Below are positions 25,341 through 32,026 of a DNA stretch of 32,302 nt, one piece after another. Every line of letters starts with the position of its first letter. The stretch's first letter is position 1. The position numbers and the translations under genes were made by a program. The notes below the pieces were generated by a model. That model made no database searches. It was given only the letters and a program-made list of their open reading frames with translations, and was not told the DNA's origin. The DNA comes from Bacteroidia bacterium. GTDB taxonomy: Bacteria; Bacteroidota; Bacteroidia; NS11-12g; UBA9320. The stretch covers positions 1-32,302 of the forward strand of contig JAFMCI010000022.1 of NCBI GenBank assembly GCA_017857855.1, read 5' to 3'.

Positions 25341-25655
25341 ATGGCAGAACCAAATAAAGGCAATCATATAGATATTGAATTAACTGAAGAAATAGCGGAT
25401 GGTATATATAGTAACTTAGCTATTATATCGCACTCTAATTCTGAGTTTGTAATAGATTTTATTAGGCTTTTGCCCGGTGTACCAAAGGCTAAAGTCAAAA
25501 GCAGAATCTTGTTAAGTCCGCAGCATGCTAAAAGACTGCATCAGGCCTTGTATGAGAATATACGTAAGTTTGAGGCACAGTTTGGGGAGATAGAAATGCA
25601 AGAGAGCGCCCCACAATTCCCACCTATGAGTTTTGGCCCAACTGGGGAGGCATAA
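25341..25655 (+). CDS. DUF3467 family protein
   Basis: The 104-residue protein has the small DUF3467 fold: I-D-I-E-L-T-E-E-I-A-D-G-I-Y-S-N-L-A, S-x-S-E-F-V-I-D-F-I-R-L-L-P-G-V-P-K-A-K-V-K-S-R-I-L and P-Q-H-A-K-R-L-H-Q-A-L. The C-terminal tail is Pro/Phe-rich. There is no signal peptide, so it is cytosolic. Function is unknown. It regularly follows rpoC in Bacteroidetes, which hints at a gene-expression role, but that is inference only. A strong terminator lies between it and rpoC, so it needs its own promoter; none is clear. Confidence 0.85.
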   Translation: MAEPNKGNHIDIELTEEIADGIYSNLAIISHSNSEFVIDFIRLLPGVPKAKVKSRILLSPQHAKRLHQALYENIRKFEAQFGEIEMQESAPQFPPMSFGPTGEA

Positions 25656-25735: not shown

Positions 25736-27418
25736 TTATTTAAATATTTGCTCCAAAATCTTCTCTGTGATTAGATATGTTGGTTTCACACCTGTAGTTC
25801 CAAGTCCGCCGCTGGCTAAGGTGCTACCAGTTTCTAAAGGGTTGTCAGATGCGTAATAAGCATAATTTACGATCACATTCGGATTTATACTCTTTCTTAT
25901 TTTAGAGTGAGCTTGAATAGCTTTTTGGTAATGTGCTCCTTCCATTTCTAAGCCTGTTGCTCCCCATGTACTCTTAAGAAAATAACGTAGTAAATCTTCA
26001 TTTTGTAATGATGTTCCTAACACTGATATCATAGTCCCTTCGTATACATCTAAATCTAATCCTTCAAAATCTTGTTTGTTGAGTCCGTTTTCGAATGGGT
26101 AATTATCAGCCGTTCCCTCAAATATATGAGCGGAAGGGATCATAATATCACCTTTTCCTCCTTCTAAAATACCAGCTTTCCCCATAATAGATATAGATGT
26201 TACGTTTAGATATTTCACAATACCTTCATCGGGTTTGTAGGGTTTAAGAAGCTCATCCATGGTTTCATACGCTTGTTCTCCAAAAGCATAGTCCATAACA
26301 ATAAGTACAGGTTTTTCTGTTTCAGTGGTGGTATTTAGTCGTTGAGCCAGTTCACCAGATATATATTTAGCAGTGTCAAAAATTTGAACATCAATATTAG
26401 TACCGCTAGTATCTGCAATAAAAGTCATTCCTTCTTTTTCGGCCAATTTTATCACTGTTTCTCGATACTTTGAACTGCCACTAAGTTCTTCAAATATGCC
26501 TAGTTTATCTTTATCTTTGAGCTTGCTTTTAAGTGCCACAGGTGCAAATAATGTATTTTGTACACTATGCATATTAGCGCTTATAATGTGAATAGGTCTA
26601 TGAAGTAAATCGCGCTTATGTAATTCTTTTTTAATGTTGTCTGCCCACATCTCACCGTGTATGTGTTGGCCTAGGCGCTCTCGAAGGACTGCACTGAATG
26701 TTACTGTGCGTTTGTTTTCTAGTAATTCTTCATCTAATGCTAATTTTCCGAGCCAAAAAATAATATGTAAAAATCGGTTAGGATTTTCAGCACTTTTAAA
26801 ATTATCATAAACATCGCTCACTTCTTTGTAAGTGCGCCCCAAGATATTTGCTGTATGCATTAGCGTGACTTCCTGTTCGTCCTTTGTTAATGCTGTTTTT
26901 TGTTGTATCGCTGCTTCTAGTTTTTGCCAATCACGATTTACTGCACCTTCTTCATTTATTAAGACACTGTGCATTATCTTATGACTTTCAATAAACAGAA
27001 AGGTAAGGTGGGTTAAAATATCATAGATTTCTGATCTACCACGCGTAATCTCTATGTTCATTTGATCAGCGTCTATTCGATAGCAGTTTCTTCTCCGTTT
27101 AGGCGGAATAATCGCTTTAAAATGAGAACCCTCGTATCCTTCGTCGCTTGTTAAATTAATGTAGCGGCATTCTTCTATTCCTATGGGCAATCTGTCAATG
27201 ACATAATTTAAACCGGCTAATTCTACTTTGTCCTGAGCAATGCTTCCGTATATTTCTGGTCTAAGGGTTAATAGTGCTTCCCTTAAGGTAGCACCACTTA
27301 CGCCCATAGGTTTATAAAATCCCCTATTAAATAAGTGACGCATGGTAACATATAGGCGTTGGATTGCACCAGTACTTTCTTGAGCTCTGCTGCGGTGATG
27401 CGGAGTATTTTTAATCAT
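25736..27418 (-). CDS. Conserved two-part protein with nucleoside-phosphorylase-like C-terminal half
   Basis: This is a 560-residue cytosolic protein without membrane segments, which I place with a Bacteroidetes protein of unknown function (probably DUF6909). The N-terminal half (about 1-265) is helical and basic, with P-P-K-R-R-R-N-C-Y-R near 105. The C-terminal half (about 270-560) has what looks like the nucleoside phosphorylase/nucleosidase signature: I-M-G-K-A-G-I-L-E-G-G-K-G-D-I-M-I-P (411-428), like the G-x-A-G...G-D-x-V-I of that superfamily, then G-L-E-M-E-G-A (489-495), and A-S-D-N (523-526), whose aspartate would match the catalytic acid. AMP nucleosidase, with its N-terminal regulatory domain, is a possible distant relative. 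This is a motif-level inference. The gene is transcribed alone and convergent with DUF3467. Confidence 0.6.
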   Translation of the reverse strand: MIKNTPHHRSRAQESTGAIQRLYVTMRHLFNRGFYKPMGVSGATLREALLTLRPEIYGSIAQDKVELAGLNYVIDRLPIGIEECRYINLTSDEGYEGSHFKAIIPPKRRRNCYRIDADQMNIEITRGRSEIYDILTHLTFLFIESHKIMHSVLINEEGAVNRDWQKLEAAIQQKTALTKDEQEVTLMHTANILGRTYKEVSDVYDNFKSAENPNRFLHIIFWLGKLALDEELLENKRTVTFSAVLRERLGQHIHGEMWADNIKKELHKRDLLHRPIHIISANMHSVQNTLFAPVALKSKLKDKDKLGIFEELSGSSKYRETVIKLAEKEGMTFIADTSGTNIDVQIFDTAKYISGELAQRLNTTTETEKPVLIVMDYAFGEQAYETMDELLKPYKPDEGIVKYLNVTSISIMGKAGILEGGKGDIMIPSAHIFEGTADNYPFENGLNKQDFEGLDLDVYEGTMISVLGTSLQNEDLLRYFLKSTWGATGLEMEGAHYQKAIQAHSKIRKSINPNVIVNYAYYASDNPLETGSTLASGGLGTTGVKPTYLITEKILEQIFK

Positions 27419-27444: not shown

Positions 27445-27464
27445 TGACTTTATACTGAAAGTCA
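27445..27464 (-). promoter_or_regulatory. Dyad in the leader of the nucleosidase-like gene
   Basis: TGACTTT, six bases, AAAGTCA form a perfect 7-bp inverted repeat, 27 bases upstream of the ATG and downstream of a candidate promoter. It may be an operator or leader hairpin. Confidence 0.35.
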
Positions 27465-28227: not shown

Positions 28228-28992
28228 TTAATATTGTACGTTATCGTTATCTAACATCCATCCTAATATTTTACCGCACTTATCTTCACAAGCAGGATAG
28301 AATTGTTGATGTGTTCGCATAACATTGCCTGAACTTGTGGGAGCTCCCCACCAAAATTCAGCTATTGCCAAGGGCTTTAAACGATGTATGTGTGCGTATT
28401 GTAATAACTTAGGTGCAGCACATTCGCCAGCTCCAGCAGGTGGGTTGTCAAATAACTGGTTAGGAGTTTTAGTATGTCCCGAACTATTTAGAAATTTATA
28501 GGCATCAAAGAGCTGATTTTGCAACGCCTGAGAGTGTGCTTTCCGTTTTTCTTTTAGTTTTATATGCTCACTCATAGCTTTACAGCCGGCGAGTTCTATT
28601 TCTTTTATCTGATCATTGATTACCTTGAGTGCGCGCATACCTCGGTTAAGAAATTCATTTTCATGGAGCGAGTCAAAGACGGGAGGTACAAAGTACTGGT
28701 GGTGATTGCCATCGGCTAGTTTACCACTAAAAGCGGCCAGAAAACCTAGGTCTCCAAGTATGGTTTGAACTACCAAAACGCCAAACATCTTGCCGATCGG
28801 TTTACCAGAGTAATTTTCTACCAATCCAAAGTTATGCTTCCATTCGTTTTGTGAAGTGAGGTGCTCTTGCAGTTGAGCAACCGCCCTCGTTACTAGTTCA
28901 TGTGGTTTCAGGGATACAACAAACGGATCGTTAAGTTTTTCTGGTAACGCTACGTTGGTAATATCTGTGGTATATGTGATTATTTTTTGCAA
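28228..28992 (-). CDS. Stand-alone N-terminal region of RluA-type pseudouridine synthase
   Basis: The 254-residue protein closely resembles the long N-terminal extension of some RluA-family pseudouridine synthases (about 550 residues, known to me from gammaproteobacteria). Shared landmarks are G-K-M-F-G-V-L-V-V (67-75), G-F-L-A-A-F-S-G-K-L (83-92), F-V-P-P-V-F-D (101-107), N-P-P-A-G-A-G-E-C-A-A-P-K-L-L-Q-Y-A (183-200), E-F-W-W-G (212-216) and F-Y-P-A-C-E-D-K-C (231-239). The central coiled-coil region is shortened. It stops where the catalytic domain (with R-L-D) would begin, and none is present nearby, so it cannot be a pseudouridine synthase itself. Conserved Cys191, Cys235 and Cys239 suggest a metal or redox site. 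The start is TTG at 28992; no in-frame ATG precedes the conserved part. Confidence 0.72.
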   Translation of the reverse strand: MQKIITYTTDITNVALPEKLNDPFVVSLKPHELVTRAVAQLQEHLTSQNEWKHNFGLVENYSGKPIGKMFGVLVVQTILGDLGFLAAFSGKLADGNHHQYFVPPVFDSLHENEFLNRGMRALKVINDQIKEIELAGCKAMSEHIKLKEKRKAHSQALQNQLFDAYKFLNSSGHTKTPNQLFDNPPAGAGECAAPKLLQYAHIHRLKPLAIAEFWWGAPTSSGNVMRTHQQFYPACEDKCGKILGWMLDNDNVQY

Positions 28993-30186: not shown

Positions 30187-30741
30187 TTATTGCTTGATTT
30201 TTGCTAAAAATGGCTGCAAATATTTTGTAATACGAATGTAGTCAGGTTCTACTTCATACAATGTTTTATTGACTAGGCGTGAAGAAGTTAGTAATTTTTC
30301 TACGTCAAGTTTTTCAGTAGCAAAATAATTTTTAAACTCTTGTTTACTGAGTTTACCTGCCTTAAGATCTTGTTTTAAAGCAGATAGTTGTTCATTTAAA
30401 GCAGATTGCTCTTTGAGATTGCTATTAAACTTGCCTGCGTTGAATTTGTATACTTTACGGATAGACTTATATCTACTGAGGTTGTTTCCCATTTCAAATC
30501 CCATGGAGTCCGTGTAATTATTATGAAAAACGAGTAAAACACTGTCAATGTACTTTGCTCTGTAATTGAAAATAGAAATGTCCATTAATAGGTTCTCTTG
30601 GTTTAGGGTTAGACTATCTTGCATTGCAAACACATGTTTTAATTCCTCTTGATGAAGTCTAGAACAGCCACTCATTGTGAAAAAAAGTGTAAAAACTGAA
30701 ATTATTACTTTATTAATTGGATTAACAATACATTTGAACAT
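30187..30741 (-). CDS. Putative lipoprotein of unknown function
   Basis: The start is the ATG at 30739-30741, giving 184 residues. The signal is M-F-K-C-I-V-N followed by a hydrophobic run and lipobox T-M-S-G-C, cysteine at 26, so an exported lipoprotein. The mature part is mostly helical and charged: a middle R-Y-K-S-I-R-K-V-Y-K-F-N segment, L-N-E-Q-L-S-A-L-K-Q-D-L-K-A-G-K (about residues 115-130) and K-Q-E-F-K-N-Y-F, with coiled-coil-like spacing. I do not recognise a family. An in-frame extension upstream to 30897 runs antisense to conserved chromate-transporter sequence and has no signal-peptide logic. The 5' end faces the transporter gene, so the two are divergent and very close or overlapping. 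Confidence 0.65.
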   Translation of the reverse strand: MFKCIVNPINKVIISVFTLFFTMSGCSRLHQEELKHVFAMQDSLTLNQENLLMDISIFNYRAKYIDSVLLVFHNNYTDSMGFEMGNNLSRYKSIRKVYKFNAGKFNSNLKEQSALNEQLSALKQDLKAGKLSKQEFKNYFATEKLDVEKLLTSSRLVNKTLYEVEPDYIRITKYLQPFLAKIKQ

Positions 30742-32026
30742 TCTGGCAAAGAAAAATACAAATAGCGTAAAAAAGATAAAACATCTACTTTTTTTAAGAG
30801 ATGTTTTTATTATTGCCTTGAGTGCATACGGAGGCCCCAATATGCATATTGCATTATACCAAAAACGCTTGGTAGATGCAAAGGGGTATCTTACCAACGA
30901 TGAACTGCTGGAATATTATTCTCTATGCCAGATGCTTCCAGGTCCTTCATCCACGCAAACATTAATGAGTATAGGTTACCAATTTGGAGGCAGGTTGCTT
31001 GCGTTTTTAACACTATTGGTCTGGGTGTTACCTGCTTTTATCCTACTTACAGCTAGTGCTATTTTTATTGGAGCATTTCAGGAATATGCGCTTCAATATT
31101 TACGTTTTGTGCAGCCTGTTGCTGTTTCCTTTGTTATGGTAGCAGGTATTAATATGATAAAAAAGTCTATTCATAATCGTCAGGGATACTTATTGGCTGG
31201 TATGGCATTCATTGTAACCGCCTTACTAAGACACCCCTTAGATACTATTGTGAATATGAAAACTCCTTGGATGTTTCCCATTGTCTTAGTTTTAGGAGGA
31301 TTATTCTCTTTTTTTGATTTTAAGGGAAAAGTAGAACCTTATGAACCTATTCAAATTAAATTCCCATGGCGATCACTGATTGCTTTTGTATTGGTCTTTA
31401 TACTTGCTGGTGTCATAGGAAAATTGAGTTCCAATAGATTAGTTATTCTCTTTGAGAATTGTTATAGATTCGGCACTTTGGTTTTCGGAGGCGGAAATGT
31501 ACTGATTCCTATGATGTTGGAGCAGTTTGTAAATCACTCTCATTATATGACGGCCGAGCAGTTTTTAAATGGAGTGGGGTTAGTGCAAGCTATCCCAGGG
31601 CCTATTTTTTCTATAGCAAGCTACACCGGAGCAACAGCTATGCAGGGATTTGGTATTGTCAATCAAATAGCGGGCAGTTTTGTGAGTACGCTCGGTATTT
31701 TTTTGCCTGGAGCACTGCTTATTTTCTTTGTGTTTCCTATATGGAAAAGAATAAAAAGTCATCCTATAGTAGTAAAAGCACTTCCAGGAGTTATTGCAGC
31801 ATCTTGCGGGTTGGTGTTAGCAGCGGCGTATCTTATGTTTTTACCTGTAGGACTTAATTGGGTGCAAGAGGATAGTTTTTACTATACTAATCTGCAGGCT
31901 ATGAACACAGTAAATTATACCAAGATAATGACGATTATTTTAACTGGGATAATGCTTCTAAAAACTAAAATAAAAGCGCCATGGTATATTTTAGTGGCTA
32001 TTGTGTTGGGTGTAATAATACCTTGA
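30677..32026 (+). CDS. chrA: Chromate transporter family protein (two-domain CHR)
   Basis: This is a 449-residue inner-membrane protein with duplicated CHR domains. The first contains F-I-I-A-L-S-A-Y-G-G-P (44-54) and C-Q-M-L-P-G-P (84-90). The second contains L-V-F-G-G-G-N-V-L-I-P (268-278) and V-Q-A-I-P-G-P (303-309). About ten hydrophobic segments are visible. Two-domain CHR proteins include ChrA, which exports chromate; many members are uncharacterised, so the substrate is inferred. The true start is uncertain: conserved sequence begins near residue 40, and residues 1-22 run antisense to the lipoprotein signal peptide. A TTG at 30734 is an alternative, and the next ATG (30842) would cut the first domain. 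Confidence 0.85.
   Translation: MKKSVKTEIITLLIGLTIHLNILAKKNTNSVKKIKHLLFLRDVFIIALSAYGGPNMHIALYQKRLVDAKGYLTNDELLEYYSLCQMLPGPSSTQTLMSIGYQFGGRLLAFLTLLVWVLPAFILLTASAIFIGAFQEYALQYLRFVQPVAVSFVMVAGINMIKKSIHNRQGYLLAGMAFIVTALLRHPLDTIVNMKTPWMFPIVLVLGGLFSFFDFKGKVEPYEPIQIKFPWRSLIAFVLVFILAGVIGKLSSNRLVILFENCYRFGTLVFGGGNVLIPMMLEQFVNHSHYMTAEQFLNGVGLVQAIPGPIFSIASYTGATAMQGFGIVNQIAGSFVSTLGIFLPGALLIFFVFPIWKRIKSHPIVVKALPGVIAASCGLVLAAAYLMFLPVGLNWVQEDSFYYTNLQAMNTVNYTKIMTIILTGIMLLKTKIKAPWYILVAIVLGVIIP

Follow-up and report, generated by a model that had tools for sequence, protein, structure and literature searches.

The window protein studied here belongs to the family DUF6909, which may be a two-domain nucleosidase of the nucleoside phosphorylase (PNP) superfamily that replaces AMP nucleosidase (AMN) and has AMP as its most likely substrate. 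We give this reading an even chance. The window is the whole 32,302-nt stretch that was analysed, contig JAFMCI010000022.1 of a Bacteroidia bacterium (UBA9320), positions 1 to 32,302. AMP is the most likely substrate because DUF6909, among the sampled Bacteroidota genomes, is found only in those without the short AMN, and DUF6909 probably does the job of that enzyme. The likely reaction would be the conversion of AMP into adenine and ribose 5-phosphate.

The gene is located at 25736-27418 on the minus strand, with ATG at 27418 and a stop at 25736-25738, and encodes 560 amino acids; over this interval the opposite strand is crowded with stops. The Pfam profile PF21850 (DUF6909) matches the protein with 209.1 bits in two stretches covering both halves, where the curated cut-off is 27 bits, and the protein is a full-length member. 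The profile also matches 31 of 31 diverse homologues, and DUF6909 is a real and widespread family. The original prediction spoke of an undescribed nucleosidase or phosphorylase. Its PNP fold was found, but the family is already catalogued in Pfam as DUF6909, without an assigned function, and a phosphorylase is unlikely because of Ile or Val at the position of the phosphorylase arginine. The function proposed here is new, and a literature search for DUF6909 found no paper naming the family. No NCBIfam family matches the window protein at E≤1, including the AMN models TIGR01717 and NF005500. Since DUF6909 neither matches the AMN models nor carries the phosphate ligands of AMN, it has not been filed as AMP nucleosidase. 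A phage or defence role was rejected because there was no phage, viral, PHROG or PADLOC match, and plasmid matches were limited to two large Persicobacter replicons. A phmmer match to the solute-binding protein 5sv6 (E 0.0046) disappeared when the family profile was used.

Judging from the predicted structure, the C-terminal half (residues 256-560; 25739-26653, minus strand) almost certainly has the PNP fold and belongs to the superfamily. The AlphaFold2 model of the window protein, made from an alignment of 68 sequences, has a mean pLDDT of 82.5 and a pTM of 0.67, and both Foldseek and VIA-align recognise in it the PNP alpha/beta core that had been predicted for this half. Residues about 253-560 match the PNP superfamily in VIA-align with Z up to 18.9 and with 678 solved chains at Z≥8, the best match being DeoD of Bacillus (1xe3_E; Z 18.9, rmsd 2.7 A, 213 aligned). 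The best Foldseek match has an E of about 2e-7, with 393 chains at E≤0.001, and AMP nucleosidase (2guw) comes third. In VIA-align the scores of phosphorylases, MTA/SAH nucleosidase (MTAN), futalosine hydrolase and uridine phosphorylase lie within about Z 1 of each other and count as ties, thus the fold names no substrate.

The relation to the PNP superfamily is also present in the sequences, where it is faint. PF01048 (PNP_UDP_1) matches residues 402-496 of the window protein with 17.2 bits (E 0.0036), which is below the curated cut-off of 25.1, so the protein is a relative by fold and not a Pfam member of PNP_UDP_1. The same profile is found at E<1 in 16 of 31 homologues, with a best E of 0.0027. 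Profile-profile comparison with 60 column-shuffled controls gives a score of 36.7 for DUF6909 against PNP-I (shuffled maximum 25.2) and 26.6 against the short AMN (shuffled maximum 24.7). One score in a separate set of 20 shuffles was 26.4, which is near the short-AMN score and above the score of 24.7 for the combined AMN alignment. At the profile level DUF6909 resembles AMN weakly, and less than it resembles PNP-I, for which the alignment is deeper.

Enzymes of the PNP superfamily bind ribose with a Met-Glu pair, and a Ser-Asp pair places the acid from which the base receives its proton. Three landmarks of this kind had been predicted and lie where they were expected: the second core beta motif G413-K-A-G...G-K-G-D-I-M-I-P428 (26135-26182), the putative ribose-binding motif E491-M492-E493-G-A495 (25934-25948) and the putative catalytic acid motif S524-D525-N526 (25841-25849), all on the minus strand. 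Among 62-63 DUF6909 homologues with identity down to 54%, residues G413, K414, G416, K422, D424, M426, M492, E493, S524, D525 and N526 are invariant, which argues that the motifs are not chance. E491-G494 and S524-N526 are unchanged in 62 of 62, and the expected conservation of Glu493 and Asp525 is thereby borne out. A further motif, S280-A-N282-M-H-S285, follows the first core strand (26564-26581, minus strand), and S280, A281, N282, H284 and S285 are identical in 63 of 63 homologues.

These motifs have counterparts in AMN. The G413 motif is profile-aligned with GKCGG...GDLILP of the short AMN, the Met-Glu motif aligns with IDMETA, the Ser-Asp motif continues as SDNPL (compare SDKPL/SDQPM in AMN) and the S280 motif aligns by eye with Asn205 of AMN (TNY/TNF). 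The residues N205, M404, E405 and D428 that contact base and sugar in AMN (PMC9584410) correspond to N282, M492, E493 and D525 in the profile alignment (N282 by eye), all invariant. If the superfamily is a guide, the hydroxyls of the ribose would be held by Met492-Glu493, the proton for the departing purine base would come from Asp525, which follows Ser524, and Asn282 would line the pocket for base and sugar. The conserved loop T530-G543 (25790-25831, minus strand) has low pLDDT at 534-541 and is a probable active-site lid; being flexible, it would close over the pocket. A conserved and poorly ordered loop is found over the active site of AMN as well (PMC9584410).

The residues of AMN that bind phosphate, R381 and K436, and the base-binding W383 (PMC9584410) have no counterparts in DUF6909. 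The position of K436 is T533, and the counterpart of TTDDR381NW383 is the loop from G461 to N473 (GTMISVLGTSLQN; 26000-26038, minus strand), without Arg, Lys or Trp. K545 is conserved in 54 of 62 homologues and, judging by the alignment, might be a stand-in for Lys436.

Of 395 genomes sampled from the phylum, 56 carry DUF6909, and every one of them belongs to the class of the window. In the window's genus it is present in nine of 19 genomes, the window's own included, and the remaining sampled genomes of the same family and order had none. The same genome samples were searched for NF005500, the short AMP nucleosidase of Bacteroidota. In the sample of the class (247 genomes) the short AMN occurs in 171 and DUF6909 in 16, with none having both and 11 expected by chance. 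At the genus level (n=135) there are 97 with AMN and 10 with DUF6909, and the overlap is zero when 7.2 are expected (hypergeometric p 1.2e-6). These statistics are inflated by kinship among the sampled genomes, and the exclusion is partly phylogenetic because a single family constitutes most of the DUF6909 set. In the phylum sample the class of the window has 56 genomes with DUF6909 and 40 with AMN, counting strong AMN matches only, again without overlap, and among 42 class members listed in full there are 22 with DUF6909, 19 with AMN and one with neither. Some DUF6909 genomes have weak matches to the AMN model (E 1e-5 to 1e-10) that fall far short of the family cut-off, and these are taken to be other PNP-superfamily proteins.

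Four families contain DUF6909 and AMN in different genomes but never together, which suggests repeated exchange. A replacement in place was rejected, as AMN and DUF6909 have no common genomic position. Neither of the two is found in 60 of the 247 genomes of the class, thus the function is dispensable. A search of the window genome found no AMN, and one PNP-I and one uridine-phosphorylase-like protein are present. Ordinary PNP-superfamily proteins are also found alongside DUF6909.

The best-surviving alternative, which we consider rather unlikely, is that DUF6909 is a nucleosidase of the same superfamily with another substrate, such as adenosine, inosine, MTA/SAH, dAMP or another nucleotide, and that the N-terminal domain gives the specificity. 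All such enzymes share the core fold and the catalytic residues, and the phosphate ligands R381 and K436 of AMN are not conserved. Moreover, H431, E434, D438, N439, Y440, Q472 and N473 are invariant and specific to the family, which suggests a pocket of its own. However, another substrate does not explain the strict mutual exclusion with AMN, nor the AMN-like SDxPL and SAN/TN motifs, and MTAN shows no such exclusion. In the control search MTA/SAH nucleosidase was found in 15 of 385 genomes and occurs together with DUF6909 in two of them (G133 and G353), so it was rejected as the displaced function, being too rare and co-occurring.

We infer AMP as the main substrate of DUF6909, with about equal weight for and against. 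A more far-reaching version is offered tentatively and with less confidence: DUF6909 could be an independent AMP-hydrolysing family that has been exchanged for AMN several times within Bacteroidota, with new ligands for the 5'-phosphate and with a regulatory fold in the N-terminal domain that has not been seen before.

A phosphorylase with inorganic phosphate as the nucleophile is improbable. The best structural matches are phosphorylases such as DeoD and uridine phosphorylase and the profile-profile score is highest against PNP-I, but structural matches within Z 1 are ties. In addition, the position of Arg87 in DeoD of E. coli is I411, just before the G413 motif, and it is Ile or Val in 63 of 63 homologues (IRVGSCG in DeoD and SIMGKAG in DUF6909 in the motif alignment), and SANMHS takes the place of the GDP loop found in DeoD. 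This arginine is also absent from AMN (LMIGHCG) and from the short AMN (LFLGKCG). Because the position is Ile or Val in DUF6909 and the AMNs lack the arginine as well, we infer hydrolysis rather than phosphorolysis, and since the phosphate-binding arginine of the phosphorylases is absent, water and not phosphate would be the likely nucleophile. That DUF6909 is a nucleosidase, rather than a phosphorylase or an inactive protein, is quite likely.

There is little probability that DUF6909 is an inactive PNP-fold nucleotide sensor or scaffold, perhaps for linked envelope polysaccharide genes in Flavobacteriaceae: the strong conservation of the large N-terminal domain and the gene's position in Flavobacteriaceae, with a GH3 gene on one side and a Wzz-like/rfb polysaccharide set on the other, would suit such a role, but all residues of the catalytic motifs are invariant and the polysaccharide linkage is absent in the genus of the window and in the other families examined.

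In Flavobacteriaceae DUF6909 usually follows a GH3-family gene and stands directly before a gene that we take to be Wzz-like, which occupies the +1 position in 82 of 121 loci and is followed by what we take to be rfb genes. A Pfam search of the Wzz-like protein gave no match. GH3 is an acyl-adenylating family. The conserved gene order containing GH3 and DUF6909 is found in L071, L103 and L107 and in most Flavobacteriaceae loci, and is presumably phosphoglycerate kinase, LysM, DUF4837, M23 peptidase, GH3, DUF6909, Wzz-like and rfb. The neighbours are different in the genus of the window and in the other families examined, so the linkage gives no general functional clue. In four loci of one family DUF6909 adjoins a divergent gene for glutamine synthetase type III, and this gene is also near DUF6909 in L052 and L057.

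In the window a small DUF3467 protein is encoded at 25341-25655 (plus strand); its gene immediately follows rpoC and is convergent with the DUF6909 gene, and the arrangement of rpoC, DUF3467 and DUF6909 is kept in the close relatives L083, L085 and L091. The last of these (CAMDCQ010000119.1) has the same gene order and a DUF6909 protein with 93% identity to that of the window; it is labelled Chitinophaga pinensis, a doubtful organism name for this metagenome bin. A frame of 254 amino acids at 28228-28992 (minus strand) has no Pfam, NCBIfam, PHROGs or PADLOC match, and other members of the genus have a homologue in the neighbourhood of DUF6909, not far from RlmF and a TrhA/hemolysin-III gene. 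A chromate-transporter-family gene at 30187-30897 (minus strand) overlaps by about 220 bases with a reading frame without family match at 30677-32026 (plus strand), and one or both starts are probably set too far upstream in the list of open reading frames.

The leader of the DUF6909 gene has the 7-bp dyad that had been pointed out, a perfect inverted repeat with a 6-nt loop at 27445-27464 on the minus strand (arms 27445-27451 and 27458-27464), but it is unremarkable. The 157-nt leader folds no better than shuffled sequences (z -0.70), an Rfam search of it gave no match, and several similar short repeats are found within the same 200 bases; thus the dyad is no evidence of regulation. Promoter-like and terminator-like sites are as frequent in the leader region as in shuffles. 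A riboswitch or attenuator was rejected, as the dyad is not distinguishable from chance.

The N-terminal domain (residues 1-255; 26654-27418, minus strand) is predicted to be mostly helical with a small beta part, with low confidence for residues 1-43. It is strongly conserved among the homologues, and in the genomes searched neither half of the profile ever turned up without the other in the same frame. The first 256 residues modelled alone have a pLDDT of 76, and a search of this model against solved structures gave no Foldseek match at E<0.001 and a best Z of 3.5 in VIA-align, in agreement with the prediction that this half has no recognised fold. Uridine phosphorylases at the top of the VIA-align list are too weak to count at that Z. 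A shallow alignment with the N-terminal domain of the long AMN pairs MRHLFNRGFYKPM...AQ with MEKIYDSGKYPKM...AQ (score 23.3), but with 13 diverse AMNs the score is 12.1, below the shuffled mean of 13.6, and homology is unsupported. Of the predicted resemblance to AMP nucleosidase, the exclusive distribution relative to the short AMN is in favour, but no N-terminal homology to AMN was found. The N-terminal region of about 250 residues would serve assembly or allosteric control, and with it the PNP superfamily would gain a new module for regulation or assembly.

Should DUF6909 be the AMP nucleosidase that is missing in these bacteria, their purine salvage and adenylate balance could be assigned, and one could test a case in which a remote relative has repeatedly taken the place of an enzyme. 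The named relatives are mostly Flavobacteriaceae, where DUF6909 is widespread (Aquimarina, Kordia, Dokdonia, Flavobacterium and others), with Persicobacter more distant. Flavobacteriaceae rank among the main degraders of polysaccharides in the sea.

Two known systems can be compared with DUF6909. AMP nucleosidase (Amn, EC 3.2.2.4) exists in a long form (TIGR01717, E. coli) and a short form (NF005500/PRK07115, Bacteroidota). DUF6909 shares with it the PNP core, the Met-Glu and Ser-Asp motifs, TN or AN after the first strand and SDxP[LM], with the pairs SAN282 and TN205 (SANMHS and TNYTR), GKAG and GKCG, GDIMIP and GDLILP, and SDNPL and SDQPM. In the long AMN, too, there is an ancillary domain at the N-terminus, and a mobile, conserved loop covers the site (PMC9584410). 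On the other hand, DUF6909 is unmatched by the AMN models, Arg381, Lys436 and Trp383 have no match, and its N-terminal domain is larger and without detectable similarity. The hexameric phosphorylases and MTAN (PF01048: DeoD, uridine phosphorylase and MTA/SAH nucleosidase) have the same core fold (Z 17-19), and the ME and SD motifs of DUF6909 are as in DeoD and MTAN, but DUF6909 differs from the PF01048 enzymes in lacking the phosphorylase arginine and GDP loop and in having an extra N-terminal domain of about 250 residues.
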